A stretch of 64,000 nt of DNA, taken from Ruminococcus sp. (GTDB lineage Bacteria > Bacillota > Clostridia > Oscillospirales > Acutalibacteraceae). Within the stretch, counting starts at the first letter, position 1. The number at the start of each line of letters is the position of its first letter. This document shows, one piece after another, positions 20,451 through 30,579 of the stretch. The position numbers were made by a program, and so were the translations under genes. The DNA lies in contig JALELS010000005.1 of NCBI GenBank assembly GCA_022768065.1, positions 1 to 64,000 of the forward strand, given 5' to 3'. The notes under the pieces are model-generated. The model made no database searches. It saw only the letters and a program-made list of their open reading frames with translations, and was not told the DNA's origin.

Positions 20451-23252
20451 TTAATAATTATCTGTAAAAGTCTTTATAAACGAATCGCTGAGATTCTGTC
20501 TGTACGCTCCGCCGTTTCTGATTATTTCTTTGTGAATTGCCGAGCTTTCATTGACATCTTCGGCTTTTTCATCAGAATCTTCGCTTGTGAGCGCCTTCAT
20601 AACCGACAGGGCCGTCGGCAAAGTGCTGTTTACCGCGCAATTCAAATGCTTAACACCATCAGTATCGATGTAAGTTCCGCTGTCGGAAACGAAAGGAGCG
20701 CATACTATTGACAAATCGGCATCTGTATTTTTTAAAAAGTCAATAGAAATCAGAAAACGCGCTTTAGCATTACTAAATGTACTTTTGACAAGAATACATA
20801 CATCTTTTGGGGGCATCTCATCAACCGTTTTTACCCCGTATTTTTCAAAAGCCCCAAACGCAGCTGCAGACGGATTAAGTTCTGCAAAAACATGGTCGGT
20901 AATATTAAATGCCGCTCTGACTTCTTCCGATGTGACCGACGGACCGAGAACAATTGCAATATTACTTCTGTAGGCCTCTGAAACGATCTTTTCGACCGCT
21001 TGTGACATTTCACTTTGGTCGGTTAACGTCTGGGCTTTTAAGTCATTAAGGGCAAATACAGAGAACTTACCCGCTTTGCACAACAGACCGTTCTCCCCTG
21101 ACGGTTTAACTCGAATCACAGTATTTCCGATTTTGTGAATTTCCGTTTTGCAAAGTGCGGAGCAAAGATTACACACGGAATTTACGATTTCTTCCTTAAC
21201 GGTAAGATTCTTAACACACGGCTGTTTTTCGAGAATTGCACCAGTCGGGCAAACAGTTGCACACTGACCGCAAAAAGAACAGTCTGTCTCTTCGAGCGGC
21301 AGCCCGAATTCGGGAGAAACAACAGTATCAAATCCGCGGCCGATAAGTCCTAATGCCGTATTGCCCATTGCTTCGTCACAGACTCTTACGCAAAGTCCGC
21401 AAAGAATGCACTTATCAACATTTCTTATTATAAGCGAAGATTTGTTTTCATTGTTTCTGTTATGCCTGGTGCCGGTAAATTTTTCCGGCTTAACATCATA
21501 TGCGTTTGCATACTTTATAAGCTTACAATCGAAGAAATCACGACAACCGCATTCGAGGCAACGCATTGCTTCGTTTTTCGCCTGTTCCTCGGTAAAGTCT
21601 TTTGAGACTTCGTTAAAGTTATTTTTTCTCTCATACGGAGGTAAAACCTCTGCAGTTCGGCGTTTTGCTTTTTCAAATCCGGCAAAATATTCCGTCGGCA
21701 ATTCCCTTTCGACTCGGAAAGGCTTTTTGTATTTTACATTTTCGCCGTATAAAAATCTGTCAATGACTACGGCTGCTTTTTGTGCTTCTCCGATAGCAGA
21801 AATTGCAATATCGGCGCCTTTATTTGTAATGTCCCCTACTGCAAAAACCCCATCCAGCGACGTTCTGAACGTTTCCTCATCGGCAGATATAGTATTGCGC
21901 TTTGTTGTGTCCAAGCCGTCAAAACCTGTTAAATCCGGATGTTGACCAATAGCCATAACGGCAGAATCAAGATATAGCATTTCCGTGTCGCCGACAATCG
22001 GTTCAGGTCTGCATCTTCCGCCCGAATCCGGCTCGCCGAGTCTCATCTTTTGCAGATTTACAGCTTTAAGCTTTCCGTTTTCACCTATAAATTCAATGGG
22101 ATTATTGAGAAATTTAAACTCAACGCCCTCTTCGGTAGCTTCCTTTATTTCAAGCTCTTCGGCAGGCATTTCATTTCTTGTGCGGCGATAAATCACATAA
22201 ACCTTTTCAGCCCCGAGACGAACTGCGGTGCGGCACGCATCCATTGCGGTGTTTCCGCCGCCTATAACGGCAACGGTCTTTCCGATTTCCGGAGCATTTC
22301 CGAGCGATACGGCACGCAAAAAATCAATGCCGCCAAAAACACCGTTCAATTCTTCGCCGGGGATTCTCATTGAACTGCTTTTCCAAGCACCGGCAGCTAT
22401 CACTACGGCATCAAAATCGCATCTTAATTCTTCAAGTTTTATGTCGCAGCCGAGCCTAACATTATTTTTCAATTCAACTCCGAGAGCTTCTATCTGTTTA
22501 ATTTCTCTGTCAAGAAGCTTTTTCGGAAGTCTGTACTCAGGTATACCGTATCGAAGCATTCCGCCCATTTTCGGCATCATGTCAAACACACTGACGCTGT
22601 GCCCCAATCTCCTGAGAAAATAGGCGGCTGTCAGTCCTCCCGGGCCGCCGCCGACAACCGCAACACGTTTGCCTGTGTCGGGCTCCGTATCAGGCACAAA
22701 GGAGTCGTCGCTTGCCATATCCATATCCGAAGCAAATGCTTTAAGTCCAGCTATGGAAATCGGTTCGTCGACAAACCGCCTGCGACAGCTTTTTTCGCAC
22801 GGATGCGGACAGATTCTGCCTATGGATGACGGCAAAGGAATTTTATCTTTAATTAGTTTAACAGCTTCTTTATATTCACCGTTTGCAATAAGCCCTACAT
22901 ACCCTTGACAGTCCGTATTAGCAGGACAAGCGAGCGTACACGGTGCTTTACAGTCACCGTCGTGATCAGATAAAAGAAGCTCTAAAGCCGTTTTGCGGGC
23001 ACGCAGGATTCGCTCACTTTCAGTATGTATAACCATACCATCATTAAGCTTTGTTGAGCAAGCGCGTAAAAGCTTCGGTATTCCCTCAGCCTCAACAACG
23101 CAAAGTCCGCAGGCGCCGTATAGCTCAACTCTTCCGTCAAAACAGAGATTCGGTATTTCTATACCGTTGTCGGCGGCAGCCCGTAATACGGTAGTTCCTT
23201 CGGGTACATTTATTTTTTTACCGTCAATAATAACACTGATTTCTTTCATCAT
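20451..23252 (-). CDS. NuoG/GltD hybrid FAD- and Fe-S-dependent oxidoreductase subunit
   Basis: The 933 residues contain these parts in order: an N-terminal [2Fe-2S] domain with C37, C48, C51 and C65; a GltD-type Fe-S segment (about 98-160); FAD-binding AVVGGGPGGLTAAYF (about 197-211); NAD(P)-binding AVIGGGNTAMDAC (about 328-340); two [4Fe-4S] clusters, CILCGLCVRVC and CSFCGQCATVC (about 615-670); a molybdopterin-oxidoreductase-type Cys cluster around 693-724; and a short remnant of that domain to the end. Molybdenum-binding parts are missing. It is the third gene of a NuoE-NuoF-like operon, overlapping NuoF by a few bases. Electron transfer between NAD(P)H, flavin and ferredoxin is likely; the exact reaction is unknown. 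A second ATG at 23249 is an equally good start. Confidence 0.85.
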   Translation of the reverse strand: MMKEISVIIDGKKINVPEGTTVLRAAADNGIEIPNLCFDGRVELYGACGLCVVEAEGIPKLLRACSTKLNDGMVIHTESERILRARKTALELLLSDHDGDCKAPCTLACPANTDCQGYVGLIANGEYKEAVKLIKDKIPLPSSIGRICPHPCEKSCRRRFVDEPISIAGLKAFASDMDMASDDSFVPDTEPDTGKRVAVVGGGPGGLTAAYFLRRLGHSVSVFDMMPKMGGMLRYGIPEYRLPKKLLDREIKQIEALGVELKNNVRLGCDIKLEELRCDFDAVVIAAGAWKSSSMRIPGEELNGVFGGIDFLRAVSLGNAPEIGKTVAVIGGGNTAMDACRTAVRLGAEKVYVIYRRTRNEMPAEELEIKEATEEGVEFKFLNNPIEFIGENGKLKAVNLQKMRLGEPDSGGRCRPEPIVGDTEMLYLDSAVMAIGQHPDLTGFDGLDTTKRNTISADEETFRTSLDGVFAVGDITNKGADIAISAIGEAQKAAVVIDRFLYGENVKYKKPFRVERELPTEYFAGFEKAKRRTAEVLPPYERKNNFNEVSKDFTEEQAKNEAMRCLECGCRDFFDCKLIKYANAYDVKPEKFTGTRHNRNNENKSSLIIRNVDKCILCGLCVRVCDEAMGNTALGLIGRGFDTVVSPEFGLPLEETDCSFCGQCATVCPTGAILEKQPCVKNLTVKEEIVNSVCNLCSALCKTEIHKIGNTVIRVKPSGENGLLCKAGKFSVFALNDLKAQTLTDQSEMSQAVEKIVSEAYRSNIAIVLGPSVTSEEVRAAFNITDHVFAELNPSAAAFGAFEKYGVKTVDEMPPKDVCILVKSTFSNAKARFLISIDFLKNTDADLSIVCAPFVSDSGTYIDTDGVKHLNCAVNSTLPTALSVMKALTSEDSDEKAEDVNESSAIHKEIIRNGGAYRQNLSDSFIKTFTDNY

Positions 23253-24991
23253 ATCACCTCTATCGCACCGAAACGACAGTTTTCTTTACATTTACCGCAC
23301 TTAATGCATTTAAGCGCATCTATTTCGTGCGGATTTTTCACAGTACCGCTGATTGCCGATACAGGGCAATTTCTTGCACAAAGTGTACAACCGACACATT
23401 TATTTTTATCGATTTTATAGGTAATCAATGCTGTGCACTCACCCGCAGGGCATTTTTTATCATTGATATGCGCTTCATACTCATTTCTGAAATATTTGAG
23501 CGTTGTGAGCACAGGGTTCGGCGCCGTTTGACCGAGACCGCAAAGCGCTCCGTCCTTAACGGCATAGCAAAGCTCTTCAAGTAAATCTATATCATCCTCA
23601 TGCCCTTTGCCGTCAACTATTCGAGTAAGAATTTCAAGCATACGCTTTGTTCCGAGACGGCAATGAACACATTTGCCGCAGGACTCTTTAGCAGTAAAAT
23701 CGAGAAAGAATTTAGCCATACCGACCATACAGGTACTCTCGTCCATAACAACCATTCCGCCGGATCCCATTATAGCCCCGGTAGCGCTGAGAGCTTTATA
23801 ATCAATAACGGTATCAAGTAAGCTTTCGGGAATACAGCCGCCCGACGGACCGCCCATCTGAACGGCTTTGAATTTTTTATCAGATTTAATACCTCCGCCG
23901 ATATCAAAGATGACATCACGCAAAGTTTTTCCCATCGGAATCTCAACAAGGCCGCCCTTTTTAATTTTTCCGGTAAGCGCAAACACCTTTGTGCCCTTAC
24001 TGTCGGCAGTACCCATAGAAGCGAACGCCTTGCCGCCGTTTAGTATTATCCACGAAACATTCGCAAATGTTTCGACATTATTTATGTTTGACGGCTTATG
24101 CCAATAGCCTGCCTGTGCCGGAAACGGAGGCTTGAGGCGCGGCATACCGCGTGATCCTTCGAGAGACTCAATAAGTGCGGTTTCTTCTCCGCAGACAAAA
24201 GCTCCGGCTCCTGCCTTGATACGCATTTTACACGAAAAATCGCTGCCGAAAATATTATCGCCGAGGTAACCCTTTTCGGTTGCTTGTTCTATAGCTTTTT
24301 CGAGTCGTTTTATGGCAAGAGGATATTCTGCCCTGACATAAACAATTGCCTCTTTCGCGCCTATGGCATATGCGCCTATGAGCATACCCTCTATCAAGTT
24401 ATGCGGATCGCCCTCGATAACAGCCCTGTCCATAAAAGCACCAGGATCACCCTCATCCGCATTGCAAATTAAATACTTTTCGGAGCCGTCGGAAGAGCGG
24501 GCGGCATTCCATTTAAACCATGTCGGGAAACCGGCACCGCCGCGACCGGCAAGACCCGAAATTTTAATTTCCTCAATAACCTGCTCGGGTGTCATTTCGG
24601 AAATGACTTTTCTTATAGCTTTATATCCGTCTGTATTTTCATAGTCGCTGATCTTTTCCGGATTTATAATGCCGCAATGTCTCAAAGCGATTCGAGTCTG
24701 CTTTTTTAAAAAGAGCTCGTCGTCCTCGGATATTTTAAGGTCCTCTACAATTGACAAATCATCGGAGTTAACTGCCTTTGCTATTCTTTCGCAGTCGTTT
24801 TCCGAAACCTTTACAAGCCGCGTAAGAGTGCCGTTATCGTAAATGTCAACAATCGGTTCCAAAAAGCACATACCTATGCATCCTGTTATGGTAAGTTCGT
24901 TACTCTTATCCAAAGCAGATGCAAGCTTGTCATAGACCTTAGCTGCTCCTGCGGCTATTCCGCAACTGCCTTCTCCAACTACAATTTTCAT
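23249..24991 (-). CDS. nuoF: NuoF/HydB-like NADH-binding flavoprotein subunit
   Basis: NADH-oxidising, FMN-binding subunit. From the ATG at 24991 it is 580 residues. An N-terminal thioredoxin-like [2Fe-2S] domain (about 1-90) is followed by the NAD/FMN region LAGRGGAGFPTWFKW and GAGAFVCGEETALIESLEG, then the N3-type cluster SCGKCVHCRLGTKRML. The C-terminus adds a two-cluster ferredoxin, CVGCTLCARNCP and CIKCGKCKENC, as in HydB of bifurcating hydrogenases and NAD-linked formate dehydrogenases. AAGGAG at good spacing supports this start, which overlaps the NuoE stop as ATGA. It is the centre of a three-gene complex with no hydrogenase or formate dehydrogenase catalytic subunit nearby. Confidence 0.93.
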   Translation of the reverse strand: MKIVVGEGSCGIAAGAAKVYDKLASALDKSNELTITGCIGMCFLEPIVDIYDNGTLTRLVKVSENDCERIAKAVNSDDLSIVEDLKISEDDELFLKKQTRIALRHCGIINPEKISDYENTDGYKAIRKVISEMTPEQVIEEIKISGLAGRGGAGFPTWFKWNAARSSDGSEKYLICNADEGDPGAFMDRAVIEGDPHNLIEGMLIGAYAIGAKEAIVYVRAEYPLAIKRLEKAIEQATEKGYLGDNIFGSDFSCKMRIKAGAGAFVCGEETALIESLEGSRGMPRLKPPFPAQAGYWHKPSNINNVETFANVSWIILNGGKAFASMGTADSKGTKVFALTGKIKKGGLVEIPMGKTLRDVIFDIGGGIKSDKKFKAVQMGGPSGGCIPESLLDTVIDYKALSATGAIMGSGGMVVMDESTCMVGMAKFFLDFTAKESCGKCVHCRLGTKRMLEILTRIVDGKGHEDDIDLLEELCYAVKDGALCGLGQTAPNPVLTTLKYFRNEYEAHINDKKCPAGECTALITYKIDKNKCVGCTLCARNCPVSAISGTVKNPHEIDALKCIKCGKCKENCRFGAIEVI

Positions 24992-25488
24992 AAGGCGCAC
25001 TCCTTATCTCTTAAATCGTTGATTATTTTTTTAGTCTTGTCCGGGGTAAGCGAACCGTATGTTTCACCGTTAATCATCATAACCGGAGAAAGACTGCAGC
25101 AGCCGAGACATGCAACATTTTTAAGCGAAAACAGACCGTCGTCGGTTGTTTCACCGTCGTGTATTCCGAGAGTTTCCATAATAGTTTTTTCAATCAGATC
25201 GGAATTGTTTACATGACACGCGGTACCCTTGCACAACATAATAAGGTATTTGCCGACGGGCTTTAATCTGAACTGAGTATAAAAAGTTGCAACACCCATT
25301 ATCTTAGAGGATTTTATTCCCGTTTTATCTGAAATGTATTTTATTACGTCGGTCGGCAGATAGCCGTAAATATCCTGTGCTTTTTGCAATATTGTAATAA
25401 GGCTGCCGGGAACAGCTGAATATTCATCCAGCACGCCGTCAATCAGCGAAAGATCGATTTTATTCTTTTCGCAATTACAGGGACCCAT
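24988..25488 (-). CDS. nuoE: NuoE/HydC-like [2Fe-2S] subunit
   Basis: Thioredoxin-like [2Fe-2S] partner of NuoF, about 166 residues from the ATG at 25488. That ATG follows GGAGG by 8 bases; an in-frame TTG at 25503 overlaps the ribosome site and is rejected. The N-terminal helical part contains LQKAQDIYGYLP and GVATFYTQFRLKP. The cluster cysteines lie in CKGTACH and, about 40 residues later, CLGCCSLSP. It is the first gene of the operon, with its stop overlapping nuoF. It is expected to pass electrons between the NuoF flavin and the large hybrid subunit. Confidence 0.93.
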   Translation of the reverse strand: MGPCNCEKNKIDLSLIDGVLDEYSAVPGSLITILQKAQDIYGYLPTDVIKYISDKTGIKSSKIMGVATFYTQFRLKPVGKYLIMLCKGTACHVNNSDLIEKTIMETLGIHDGETTDDGLFSLKNVACLGCCSLSPVMMINGETYGSLTPDKTKKIINDLRDKECAL

Positions 25489-25650
25489 TTTTTCTTCCTC
25501 CAAAGTTAGTTAAACTTAGAAATATAATAATATACATTCACAAAAAATGCAATTTGAAAATATTGCAACTTTAACCGAAAAAACTGTTAACTATCAACAC
25601 AAAGGCAAAAAAGATGTAAAATATAAACAGATATTTCAGAGGTGTATTTT

Positions 25651-26361: not shown

Positions 26362-27867
26362 TTATTGTTTTGTCGGCATAACTCCCGCAGGAAGATCGGG
26401 CATATTATCATATACTGGAATAAGGAAAGTAAATGAGTTTGAAAGTTGACCCATTTTGCTGTACTTATTATAGGTTCTTATTCCCTCGGAGCTTGCAGCC
26501 ATAATATTTGACATATACTGATGTGAATAGAGACCGCCGTTTGCAATTACATCAAACTTTTGGAAATACAAAGTGTTTTGCCCTACGTTGATGTATCCCG
26601 TTGCTATGTATTTGGCTCCGCCGAGTATTGCTTTATATCTGCTGTTCCAAGGTCTCAGATATTTTTCTTCGGCAGAAGGCGTTGAAGCCCATTTAAGCGC
26701 GTTTATTACCGGATCGCTGCTTTGATAAGCACCGATATTGTAATAGTTATATATGCCCTCATATCCCGGTTCTTTGCCGCTTACAGAGCGGCTTCCGTTT
26801 ACTCCGACTTCCTGGATAACTCGTGATACCAAATGATATGGGCTTACATTATACGATTCGGCAGCGGTCATAAATGCCTGTGCATATGTTACCGTAACAT
26901 CGGTCTCGGAATTATTGCCGATAGTTTCTCTTGAACCGCCTACAAATTGGAATAAAATCATTGCATCCGCAACATCTATCTCGCCGTCTTCGTTGAGGTC
27001 GGCAACAGATTTTCCGTTACCCAAGTCGGGAATGTTACCTGCCGAATACTGAAACAACATCATTGCATCCGCAATATCGGTTTTACCGTCCGAATTTAAA
27101 TCACATGAGCCGTTGTCATAATTTTTCTCGCCGGTACTGATTTTTGTATTATCCATAAATGTGCCTTTAAGCATTGATTCGACACCGGAAAGAGTTTGCG
27201 CGTTTTTATCATATGACAATGTTTCAAATTGGAAAATGTCACTTTCTTTTGTCAGGAAATTTCTCGGGTCAAGATAATATGACACAACGTCGCTTGAAGC
27301 CTGAAACCAAGTCTTGCCGTCAATCGGAGTCCATGTCCCAGTTGACGGATTGTAAGTTCTGTCAGTCACAGATAAATATTTTTTATCATACGGAGGCACC
27401 TGAAGAGCGCTTCTGCCGCTTACATTTTCATTTTCAAGAACTTCATCCCAAGAAAGACCAGTGTATAAAAATTTAAAATTCCAATTTGGATGTGCGCTTT
27501 TCAGCTTATCTATATAGCTTTTATAAAGCTCGGGAACCTCGTCCGAAATGCCGATGTCACTTGTTACGGTAACAAGTCCGGTTGAAACATAACAATTCTC
27601 ATAGAATTTACCGCCGTAATTAAATTCAATTTTATACCAATCTTTTGTTGTTGTTCCGTCATCGCATTTTACTCTGTCAACGATTATTATCTGAGTATTT
27701 GCGGGAAGGTTTCTGACCACAATCGAATGGCCGGTTCCCGGACCGCTTCTTATATTAGCCTGACTTTTAATAACACCGTTTTTGCTTACGGCAAAAGCGG
27801 ATACCGATAAGACAGCCAACAAAACAGTTGTCAAAAGTATTGTTTTTAAAATTCTTCGGCTTTTCAT
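26362..27867 (-). CDS. secreted N-acetylglucosaminidase with SH3b domain and internal dockerin
   Basis: The 501-residue exported cell-wall hydrolase has a signal peptide to about residue 26. A bacterial SH3 domain covers about 30-100 (SQANIRSGPGTGHSIVV). A glucosaminidase-type region follows, split in two. Its first part (about 115-245) ends LKGTFMDNTKIS; the second begins TYAQAFMTAAESYNVSPYHL near 327 and holds the probable catalytic Glu353 in VIQEVG. Between them, residues 255-311 form a type I dockerin of two calcium loops, DLNSDGKTDIAD and DLNEDGEIDVAD, each followed by AM(M/I)LFQ. Dockerins normally sit at a terminus. It could bind a cohesin-bearing scaffold or the cell surface. The amidase and GHL10 genes lie upstream. 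Confidence 0.87.
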   Translation of the reverse strand: MKSRRILKTILLTTVLLAVLSVSAFAVSKNGVIKSQANIRSGPGTGHSIVVRNLPANTQIIIVDRVKCDDGTTTKDWYKIEFNYGGKFYENCYVSTGLVTVTSDIGISDEVPELYKSYIDKLKSAHPNWNFKFLYTGLSWDEVLENENVSGRSALQVPPYDKKYLSVTDRTYNPSTGTWTPIDGKTWFQASSDVVSYYLDPRNFLTKESDIFQFETLSYDKNAQTLSGVESMLKGTFMDNTKISTGEKNYDNGSCDLNSDGKTDIADAMMLFQYSAGNIPDLGNGKSVADLNEDGEIDVADAMILFQFVGGSRETIGNNSETDVTVTYAQAFMTAAESYNVSPYHLVSRVIQEVGVNGSRSVSGKEPGYEGIYNYYNIGAYQSSDPVINALKWASTPSAEEKYLRPWNSRYKAILGGAKYIATGYINVGQNTLYFQKFDVIANGGLYSHQYMSNIMAASSEGIRTYNKYSKMGQLSNSFTFLIPVYDNMPDLPAGVMPTKQ

Positions 27868-27921: not shown

Positions 27922-29307
27922 TCAAGTCTTATTTTTGGAAATAATATCATTCAGGTAACAAATTATGCCGTTTGCTATACCATCAGCTATAACCTCTTGC
28001 GAATTGCGATCACTGAGTGCGGCACACTCTGTGGGATTTGAAAAGTAACCGCACTCCACGAGAACCGACGGACATTCCTCGATTCTTGTAACCTTATACG
28101 GAAAGAAGCGTTTGCTGCCGTCCGGCTGTATAATTTTTGCACTCATATCCGGGAGGTCTGCATAAATATTTTTCCAACTCTCCTCAAGACCGCTTAAAAT
28201 AAGACGGGCAGGCAATTCCGAATTTGCTCTGTAATAATACGCTTCGGGACCGGAAAGCGACGAGACACTTTCGGAAAAATTATTATGTACAGAAACAAAC
28301 AAATCCGCACCGCTGTAACGAGCCATAGACTGCCTTTTATCAACAGACCAAAAAGTATTGTCGGAACGTGTCAATATTACGTTTATTCCGGCATTTTCCA
28401 ATTTTTCCCGAACTAAAAGAGTGATATTAAGGTTAACGTCCGACTCATATACTCCGTTTACACCGATTGTTCCGCAATCCTTACCGCCGTGACCGGCGTC
28501 AAGTGCAACAATCGCGTTTGACAGGTTATCCGGGGCGTCTTTAAAAACAATCGACAGTTTACCGTCCGCCGTGTAGGAAGCGGTATAACCGTAAAACACA
28601 CCCGGTGTTTTAAGATACAGCCGCAATATATAAGTTCCGTTATCACCTTTTAACCATTCGCCGCGTTCTATTATTTTGCTGCCGTTAAAATTGAGTTTTC
28701 CGACAGCGCTGTCGGTATAGTTAAAAGTAAAATCCAAATACGACGCATTAAAAGATTTAACATTATATGCCCGTCCGAGATAACCGGTATAGTATTGCTG
28801 ATCGGGGAAATCAGCATTAAACGGTACTTTCCAATCTGTTTTAAGCAATAATCCTGTCTGCATTTTTGTATTTACGGATGCGACGCTTATTGAATTTTCA
28901 GGCAAAACAAAACCGTCAATAACATTGCATTCATCTTTTTTTATTATTTTGCCTGAGCCGAGAAATACATATTCTTTATCATCAATAACCTTTTCATCGA
29001 TATAATAATCAATTGTTCCGTCCGGCAGCGGTGAGCAATGCGGATCCGATTTATCACTCACACTGTCTGCCGGTATAGTTTCGGCATATGGTACGTTTAT
29101 TACGCAAATTTTTGCCTGCCCTAATCCGTGATCATCGTTATATGAAATATTTTTTGCAGTATCCCTATTTTCCGCTTGATGAAAAACAGACAAAGATTTT
29201 GGACTGTTTGAGTCGACGGCAAATAATGCGATTGCCGCCGTCAAAACCATCATGATTATTATAAGTATTATTCGTTGTTTATTAAAAAGTTCCTTAAATT
29301 CTTGCAT
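27922..29307 (-). CDS. N-acetylmuramoyl-L-alanine amidase (Amidase_3)
   Basis: Zinc amidase that cuts the glycan-peptide bond of peptidoglycan. From the ATG at 29307 (461 residues) there is an N-terminal transmembrane anchor near residues 14-30. A non-catalytic beta-rich region follows to about 265, then the Amidase_3 domain with zinc ligands in DAGHGG, YESDVN and SVHNN. The catalytic glutamate lies in VECGYFSN. An in-frame TTG at 29325 would add six residues; GGGATG before the ATG favours the shorter form. It lies 27 bases downstream of the GHL10 gene. Confidence 0.92.
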   Translation of the reverse strand: MQEFKELFNKQRIILIIIMMVLTAAIALFAVDSNSPKSLSVFHQAENRDTAKNISYNDDHGLGQAKICVINVPYAETIPADSVSDKSDPHCSPLPDGTIDYYIDEKVIDDKEYVFLGSGKIIKKDECNVIDGFVLPENSISVASVNTKMQTGLLLKTDWKVPFNADFPDQQYYTGYLGRAYNVKSFNASYLDFTFNYTDSAVGKLNFNGSKIIERGEWLKGDNGTYILRLYLKTPGVFYGYTASYTADGKLSIVFKDAPDNLSNAIVALDAGHGGKDCGTIGVNGVYESDVNLNITLLVREKLENAGINVILTRSDNTFWSVDKRQSMARYSGADLFVSVHNNFSESVSSLSGPEAYYYRANSELPARLILSGLEESWKNIYADLPDMSAKIIQPDGSKRFFPYKVTRIEECPSVLVECGYFSNPTECAALSDRNSQEVIADGIANGIICYLNDIISKNKT

Positions 29308-29334
29308 CTTTACATCCCAAACCAATTTTAATTA

Positions 29335-30579
29335 TTATAACATATTTTTTATATTTTGGTATTCCTTTTCGGCAATTTCCGACTTATTTTCCGCAAATAA
29401 ATAAGAATAGGAATACACGGAAAAACCGCAGTAATTATTCTTTCTTCTTGAATATCTTATTTCTTCGGAACATATATTGCCGTTTTCGCACCACTCATTT
29501 TTCCCGTCCCCCGCATTGTCGTCCGTTTTTCCGCTTTTATAATACGCCAGACCTACACACAGCTTAACATTACCGCTTTTAACCGCCTCCGACCATTGGT
29601 TTAACGTGTTTAAAAACGGCTTACTGCTGTTTTTAAATCCATAATAAAGCTGCGGCATAACAATATCTGCGTATCCGCCTTGCGAACACCACTTTATAAC
29701 GTCCGCGTACAGCATTGAATAATTTTTTTCTATATCTCCTGCAGGACTTATCACCACTTTCACATCTTGCTTTATTGTTTTAACAGCAGAATACAGCCCG
29801 CTTATAAAAGAATTAACATTTTCTCTGCGCCAATCATCAAGAGACAGCTCTCCACCTTCATTGAGATAATTTGTATACAAATCAACGTCTATTCCTTCGT
29901 CTGCGGTCGGATAAAAATAATCATCCATATGTATAGCCGATATATTGTAATTCCTTACTATTTCGCGAACACCGTCAATGATTATCTTCTGTGCTCTTTT
30001 TGATGACGGATTATAATAAATTCCGCTGCCTGTTATTATCAAATCATCCGTCAAAGGATTATCTGTGTACCATTGCTTAGCCGGGTTTGATTCGCTTAAA
30101 TCGTCAAAACTATCTTTATAGCTTACGCGGTACGGATTTATCCACGCCTCAATTTTCAGTCCGTATTTTTCTGCTTCATTTGTTGCAATAAGAAACGGAT
30201 CATATCCCGGGTTCTTTCCCTGCTCTCCTGTTATATATGATGACCAGGGAAAAATTTCGGAGGCGCAGAAGCTGTCGGAAAACGGTCTGACTTGAAAAAT
30301 AACAGTATTAAGCCCGAACGCTTTGATATTTTCAAACATTGAATCGATCTTATTTTTAAAGTCTTCGGCGGTCCCGCCACCGACAGATTTCATAGACAAC
30401 TCATTGTAGTTTATCCACACTCCGCGATATTCATCAGAAATAATATCATCTGTATTAATGCTGCTGTCATTACCGCTGTCAAGTGATGTACTTTCGGGTT
30501 CGGCAAGATTTATGTTCTTTAGGCTGCACGACGAGAGAAGCAACAACGCAAATAGAATCACTGTAAGTCTTTTAAACAT
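29335..30579 (-). CDS. GHL10-type (DUF187) family 10 glycosyl-hydrolase-like lipoprotein
   Basis: The 414-residue lipoprotein has its signal peptide ending LLLLSSC (Cys18). The mature part carries the GHL10/DUF187 barrel: EYRGVWINYNEL, NTVIFQVRPFSDSF, PWSSYITGEQG, IEAWINPYRVS, AIHMDDYFYP and DIVMPQLYYGF. These are the conserved strands of the family, and the D-D pair in HMDDYF is a likely active-site element. In Gram-positives such proteins are thought to act on wall-associated glycans, but the substrate is unproven. With the amidase 27 bases downstream it forms a cell-envelope pair. Confidence 0.88.
   Translation of the reverse strand: MFKRLTVILFALLLLSSCSLKNINLAEPESTSLDSGNDSSINTDDIISDEYRGVWINYNELSMKSVGGGTAEDFKNKIDSMFENIKAFGLNTVIFQVRPFSDSFCASEIFPWSSYITGEQGKNPGYDPFLIATNEAEKYGLKIEAWINPYRVSYKDSFDDLSESNPAKQWYTDNPLTDDLIITGSGIYYNPSSKRAQKIIIDGVREIVRNYNISAIHMDDYFYPTADEGIDVDLYTNYLNEGGELSLDDWRRENVNSFISGLYSAVKTIKQDVKVVISPAGDIEKNYSMLYADVIKWCSQGGYADIVMPQLYYGFKNSSKPFLNTLNQWSEAVKSGNVKLCVGLAYYKSGKTDDNAGDGKNEWCENGNICSEEIRYSRRKNNYCGFSVYSYSYLFAENKSEIAEKEYQNIKNML

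Follow-up and report, generated by a model that had tools for sequence, protein, structure and literature searches.

What does a dockerin do in the middle of a peptidoglycan hydrolase, and how can the enzyme's fold accommodate it? The question is raised by a glucosaminidase gene in a 64,000-nucleotide stretch of Ruminococcus sp. DNA (assembly GCA_022768065.1, contig JALELS010000005.1, positions 1 to 64,000), which is the whole stretch analyzed and is referred to here as the window. The gene (26362-27867, minus strand, as are the parts and neighbors described below) runs from ATG to stop and encodes 501 residues. A single uninterrupted frame, described in an earlier note made from the sequence of the window, is indeed open throughout. 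The open frame and domain matches identify an SH3b-glucosaminidase with an internal dockerin. The enzyme would be a secreted endo-beta-N-acetylglucosaminidase of the SagB/AtlE type (GH73-like), probably acting on the peptidoglycan of its own cell. We give a little better than an even chance to the reading that it cuts its own peptidoglycan and that the dockerin holds it at the surface through a membrane-anchored cohesin. The analysis of the internal dockerin covers one assembly.

The dockerin and the catalytic fold

By similarity, the protein is probably a peptidoglycan glucosaminidase of the SagB/AtlE type (GH73-like), with the two-domain fold and V-shaped cleft of that type. Residues 329-460 match Staphylococcus aureus autolysin E (AtlE), and similar stretches match the Atl glucosaminidase (Atl-gl) and SagB, all among solved structures. 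E353 (codon 26809-26811) aligns with the catalytic glutamate, E138 of AtlE (E138A mutant structure entry 4pi8), and all 40 columns that are invariant across 12 homologues are retained. The NCBIfam SagB model NF052642 gives a weak match (E 3.9e-14), and its 52.5 bits lie far under the curated cut-off of 425 for SagB proper. PF01832, the family proposed earlier for the catalytic part, gives no match to the protein at E 1 in a Pfam search; one homologue fragment is likewise under its cut-off (15.3 bits vs 30.2).

With the help of the SagB domain limits given in PMC7170848, the catalytic region can be described as four stretches. The first glucosaminidase part, placed by SagB alignment and these limits, is the R-domain half (residues 105-216, 27220-27555), followed by the start of the L-domain (residues 217-245, 27133-27219), whose boundary was mapped by hand from SagB D71/L72 to T216/L217. 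The inserted segment (residues 246-325, 26893-27132) replaces a short loop, as delimited by loop length in relatives and by the predicted strands 242-250 and 321-327 that flank it in the structure model. Structure alignments assign residues 326-495 (26383-26892) to the rest of the L-domain and a second R-domain segment. Combined, the two flanks cover 233 of the 250 residues of SagB (6fxp). The dockerin thus interrupts one catalytic fold, as had been proposed, and the part before it is no separate non-catalytic domain, the flanks aligning jointly to SagB with the insert inside the L-domain. By alignment and model, the dockerin occupies the loop just ahead of a pair of helices leading up to the catalytic glutamate.

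The module itself (residues 256-307, 26947-27102) is a type I dockerin that passes the Pfam Dockerin_1 profile (PF00404) with 38.1 bits against a cut-off of 22.9 (E 1.8e-9), so the calcium loops recognized by eye stand up to the dockerin model. The two DxNxDGxxDxxD motifs begin at residues 256 (256-267, 27067-27102) and 290 (290-301, 26965-27000), and the 22-residue repeats are identical at 14 of 22 positions. In the structure model, the dockerin has helices at 265-275 and 299-306 with pLDDT mostly below 50, from an alignment (A2) without dockerin rows. These were excluded after a first alignment misplaced added dockerin rows; L050, L052, L053, and L055-L058, seven rows whose inner insert resembles SH3b, are also absent from A2. 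Upstream in the chain are a signal peptide (residues 1-28, 27784-27867), assigned by eye with a modeled helix at 3-20, and an SH3b domain (residues 36-86, 27610-27762; Pfam SH3_3, E 1.5e-6), which is modeled at low confidence and probably binds the wall.

An assembly artefact that fused pieces of two genes could also produce such an arrangement, and it would fit with the restriction to one genome and with a somewhat higher GC content at third codon positions (GC3) in the insert (0.45 vs 0.375 for the whole gene). However, the frame is single and open, the insert boundaries coincide with the loop, no C-terminal dockerin is left over, and the neighboring genes are as in congeners, which makes this explanation extremely improbable. 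Comparison of the two ends of the insert, 60 bases each, gives no direct repeat longer than 6 bases.

The loop and the dockerin in relatives

For comparison, 106 relatives were counted, each with both catalytic parts; the counts cover the retrieved loci, some of which may represent the same species. L087, a duplicate of L107, and L130, which has no catalytic part, were excluded. Homologues from named genomes belong to Bacillota, the majority carrying titles of Clostridia groups. By a dockerin profile made in the analysis, partly from the same loci to which it was applied, 61 of the 106 carry a dockerin. It is C-terminal in 57 and N-terminal in 1, and in 3 it separates the catalytic part from an additional stretch. 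None of the 106 has a dockerin at the junction. Twelve of the relatives, all scored dockerin-free, are truncated at the 3' end, and a dockerin-like tail of L175 was overlooked by the profile. Among 18 further loci with short flanks, counted apart from the 106, 15 have a C-terminal dockerin and 3 have none. Within this family, the generalization that dockerins are normally terminal is therefore borne out (57 of 61), and so is the adjacency of the two flanks: the spacing between M238 and Y328 is 89 residues in the window protein, and its median is 14 across 105 relatives (range 2-33, plus L101), a count that omits the permuted L108 and also L208, which was retrieved later. One congener locus (L131:3943-6357, G224) encodes a glucosaminidase with choline-binding repeats after the dockerin (Pfam 22.7 against a cut-off of 22.9).

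Three relatives carry other changes at the same loop. In L101 the loop is a Ser/Thr-rich stretch of 121 residues. In L208, which belongs to a different family of the class, a 94-residue low-complexity stretch lies between the matching F and Y. The congener L108 (G205, L108:1200-3737), which shares the upstream amidase gene with the window locus, is circularly permuted and cut at this loop; its signal peptide (by eye) is followed by the catalytic part, then by SH3b and the first part, and finally by SLH domains. Circular permutation at this loop is plausible because both chain ends of SagB lie within the R-domain. Judged from these sequences, the loop at the junction is permissive. The dockerin module may fold as a lobe hanging from a hairpin; such a loop-out, suggested in the earlier note, agrees with the long linkers and the same-loop permutation of relatives, but the dockerin is modeled at low confidence.

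A permissive loop bears on two alternatives. In one, calcium or cohesin binding to the dockerin near the Glu353 helices would alter how the L- and R-domains slide and would thereby switch the hydrolase. The insert does lie inside the L-domain, and cleft closure in SagB and AtlA-gl needs domain sliding, according to the portion of PMC7170848 available. However, relatives that are permuted here or have low-complexity sequence in this position suggest a mechanically uncoupled loop, and we regard such a control element as distinctly unlikely. In the other, the dockerin landed in the loop after loss of a C-terminal dockerin and is a tolerated passenger that binds no partner. The low-complexity stretches of relatives imply that little is demanded of the loop, and the window gene has neither an adjacent cohesin nor, in its own genome, a full-length match to the paired anchor of congeners. 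Yet both calcium loops are intact with strongly matching repeats, the Pfam score is well above cut-off, the chain has no C-terminal dockerin, in line with the internal one having taken over its task, and four cohesins remain in the genome. The passenger is unlikely, though it deserves more weight than the control element.

In the tethering reading, the internal dockerin would have replaced, or been moved from, the C-terminal dockerin of an ancestor. Dockerin similarities do not distinguish a move from an independent gain, as the nearest dockerins are of comparable identity: 43.5% for the G388 protein, about 32-39% for the C-terminal dockerins of congeners, and 37.5-44% for three other dockerins of the same genome. 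G388, a candidate from the order search whose match extended from the first catalytic part to dockerin sequence, proved to be a cohesin/fn3/dockerin protein, and no glucosaminidase was found in 9 kb at its locus. G1016, a class-search match across the whole junction, has a low-complexity insert and a C-terminal dockerin. No second internal dockerin is among the matches listed for the junction fragment in 398 family and 391 class genomes, samples that contain the window's own genome and overlap earlier ones.

A tree of 81 loci and the window protein groups the latter with rearranged congeners in a ten-member clade (support 91/95); its exact place has moderate support (91/77). The tree omits L087 and, for catalytic insertions, open ends, or strong divergence, 25 of the 106 relatives. 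The enzyme also accepts SH3b domains at two places other than the dockerin loop. One is inside the first part (L104, L109, and L110, and probably also L105 and L106, in which the first part is split and SH3 matches twice). The other is inside the catalytic part, where the Pfam score is above cut-off for L057 and just below it for L052. Inner SH3b domains were assigned by eye in L050, L053, L055, L056, L058, and L088, the last with no inner match listed by Pfam.

Cohesins and a role at the cell surface

If the dockerin is an anchor, a cohesin should receive it. Pairing was examined outside the genus, in those of the 106 relatives whose locus includes the whole 3' end and no less than 450 nt of sequence beyond it. 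A cohesin-like gene begins at -17 to +45 nt downstream in 25 of 30 dockerin-bearing loci (the others being L048, L088, L172, L173, and L185) and in 1 of 25 dockerin-free loci (L041). The pair recurs in six families of the order and in a seventh elsewhere in the class, as well as at four named loci. Counting two pairs from within the genus, the partners number 28. Strong hydrophobic stretches, resembling a membrane anchor, occur in all 20 of those that are not truncated at the locus end (8 are), and Pfam at E 0.01 finds Cadherin-like domains in 23 of 28 and Cohesin in 15 of 28. In a further pair, L208, Pfam confirms both the dockerin-glucosaminidase and the cohesin protein, and four short-flank loci outside the test (L020, L034, L035, and L037) have a cohesin-like or cadherin-like gene downstream. 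Loci in which the dockerin-glucosaminidase gene is directly followed by a cohesin-like gene, whose product in many cases also has a cadherin-like domain and a hydrophobic anchor, include L103:7075-8352, L107:2672-3940, L169, L174, L176-L179, L181-L184, L186, L188, L189, L203, L205, L206, L208, and others. The recurrence of the pair across families suggests that it is common for a cohesin-dockerin pair to tether the cell's own wall hydrolase with no cellulosome involved.

Within the genus, cohesin and dockerin matches occur in 39 of 39 genomes. Among 33 congener genes with a complete 3' end, 29 carry a dockerin and 4, forming a single clade, carry SLH domains instead. SLH arrays are known for binding the wall. 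Since an SLH array takes its place in relatives, the dockerin is best read as an anchor. Glucosaminidases with SLH arrays and no dockerin are L105, L106, L108, and L116, and L195 outside the genus.

The search for cohesins in the window's own genome returned four, one per protein, three of these proteins having a C-terminal hydrophobic stretch. Five proteins carry dockerins; besides the glucosaminidase, these are a 198-residue protein, a BspA-type leucine-rich repeat (LRR) protein, a Big_2 protein, and a transglutaminase-like protein. Among the matches listed, other proteins of the genome resemble the window protein in the dockerin part only. No multi-cohesin scaffoldin was found in the genome scan, although divergent cohesins might escape it and the completeness of the assembly is 96.8%. 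The cohesin protein at C10 also resembles the partner proteins of relatives, and our guess is that the partner is one of the four unlinked cohesins, with G000:C10 (a cohesin/cadherin-like/membrane-anchor protein) first. It is a guess because the C10 call rests on the scan and on similarity and because the paired anchor has no full-length match. By binding such a membrane-anchored cohesin, the dockerin would keep the enzyme at the cell surface.

A multi-enzyme complex, either a cellulosome or a lytic complex acting on other cells or food, would be another use for a dockerin, and one has been proposed for dockerin-bearing wall hydrolases in the accessible text of PMC6403190. However, four proteins with one cohesin each and five with dockerins fit it poorly, the other four dockerin proteins include no polysaccharide-degrading enzyme by Pfam, and the gene stands with genes for an amidase and a GHL10 protein. 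We judge such a complex very unlikely, and the earlier link to cellulosome-type assembly is not supported; the pattern in relatives points to surface tethering.

Several observations weigh against tethering. The insert arrangement is found in one genome only, in an assembly of 32 contigs. The first dockerin loop lacks the GD start present in most other listed dockerins, and the model, with pLDDT of 36-53 by blocks for the dockerin and 59 for the Glu353 block, is too poor to judge exposure. No cohesin gene adjoins the gene here, the next one downstream encoding a convergent PHP-domain protein, and an adjacent cohesin occurs in only 2 of 28 dockerin-bearing genes of the genus (L103 and L107). 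Their paired anchor has no full-length match in the window's genome, where its cohesin part alone matches (C29, E 1.9e-6). Two of the four cohesins are confirmed by hmmscan at E 0.01; the other two, C10 included, are above the Pfam cut-off in the genome scan and unlisted by hmmscan. Rows of the pair test are related rather than independent, so its Fisher value of 1.4e-9 is too small, and the cohesin call for 13 of the 28 partners comes from a profile built from some of those partners. Lastly, the four SLH rows may reflect one event.

A bolder combination makes the dockerin both switch and anchor. Calcium-dependent docking to a membrane cohesin would fix the L-domain and set the cleft so that the enzyme works only when docked, and the gene pair, its anchor split off to a separate protein, would be a common equivalent of SagB-SpdC among clostridia. 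We consider this combination improbable, on a par with the control element.

Upstream lie genes for an N-acetylmuramoyl-L-alanine amidase (Amidase_3; 27922-29325, Pfam 1.7e-39) and a GHL10 glycosyl-hydrolase-like protein (29335-30579, Pfam 5.4e-53), both close to the glucosaminidase in many congeners. This stretch (27922-30579) is a possible peptidoglycan remodeling cluster. Elsewhere in the window, three adjoining genes (20451-25503) include one for a 933-residue iron-sulfur flavoprotein (Pyr_redox_2, Fer2_4, Fer4), and two that appear NuoF- and NuoE-like by eye; they possibly encode an electron-bifurcating complex.

Known systems

Wall hydrolases with dockerins in ruminococci are already published (PMC6403190). 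They share with the window protein a dockerin on a peptidoglycan enzyme, and the portion of that article available does not mention an internal one. A table in PMC4081043, whose columns are not resolved in the accessible version, lists GH73 as one of the families unique to R. albus. In Ruminococcus flavefaciens FD-1, internal dockerins bind as well as terminal ones (PMC5301203); they are mid-chain like that of the window protein, but in the text available they are not placed inside a catalytic domain. The accessible portions of PMC5814915, PMC5590126, PMC12997984, and PMC5748583 contain nothing on a dockerin insert or the gene pair, and the term 'internal dockerin' is not found in the main text of PMC5590126. 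Dockerin-bearing wall hydrolases and internal dockerins are therefore known, and the openly licensed literature searched holds no description of a dockerin inside a catalytic fold or of the recurring gene pair, which is weak evidence of absence.

A docking module within a catalytic fold would demonstrate that nature can relocate dockerins to inner loops, a point of use for tethered-enzyme design. As the module probably holds the enzyme at the cell surface, its odd position is a natural test of how docking modules can be moved. Within this lineage the enzyme also occurs as a natural circular permutant and with inserted SH3b domains. The gene pair of the surroundings may matter more than the internal dockerin.

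Autolysin E and the Atl glucosaminidase (GH73-like) share the fold and catalytic glutamate with the window protein, but their matched chains have neither the loop insert nor a dockerin, and the solved catalytic domain of the Clostridium perfringens autolysin (5wqw, 8yxn) likewise has no dockerin insert. SagB of S. aureus, which forms a peptidoglycan release complex with SpdC (PDB 6u0o), has the same catalytic fold and acts at the membrane. Unlike SagB, the window protein has an SH3b domain, a dockerin, and an insert in the L-domain, and its tethering would be through a cohesin.
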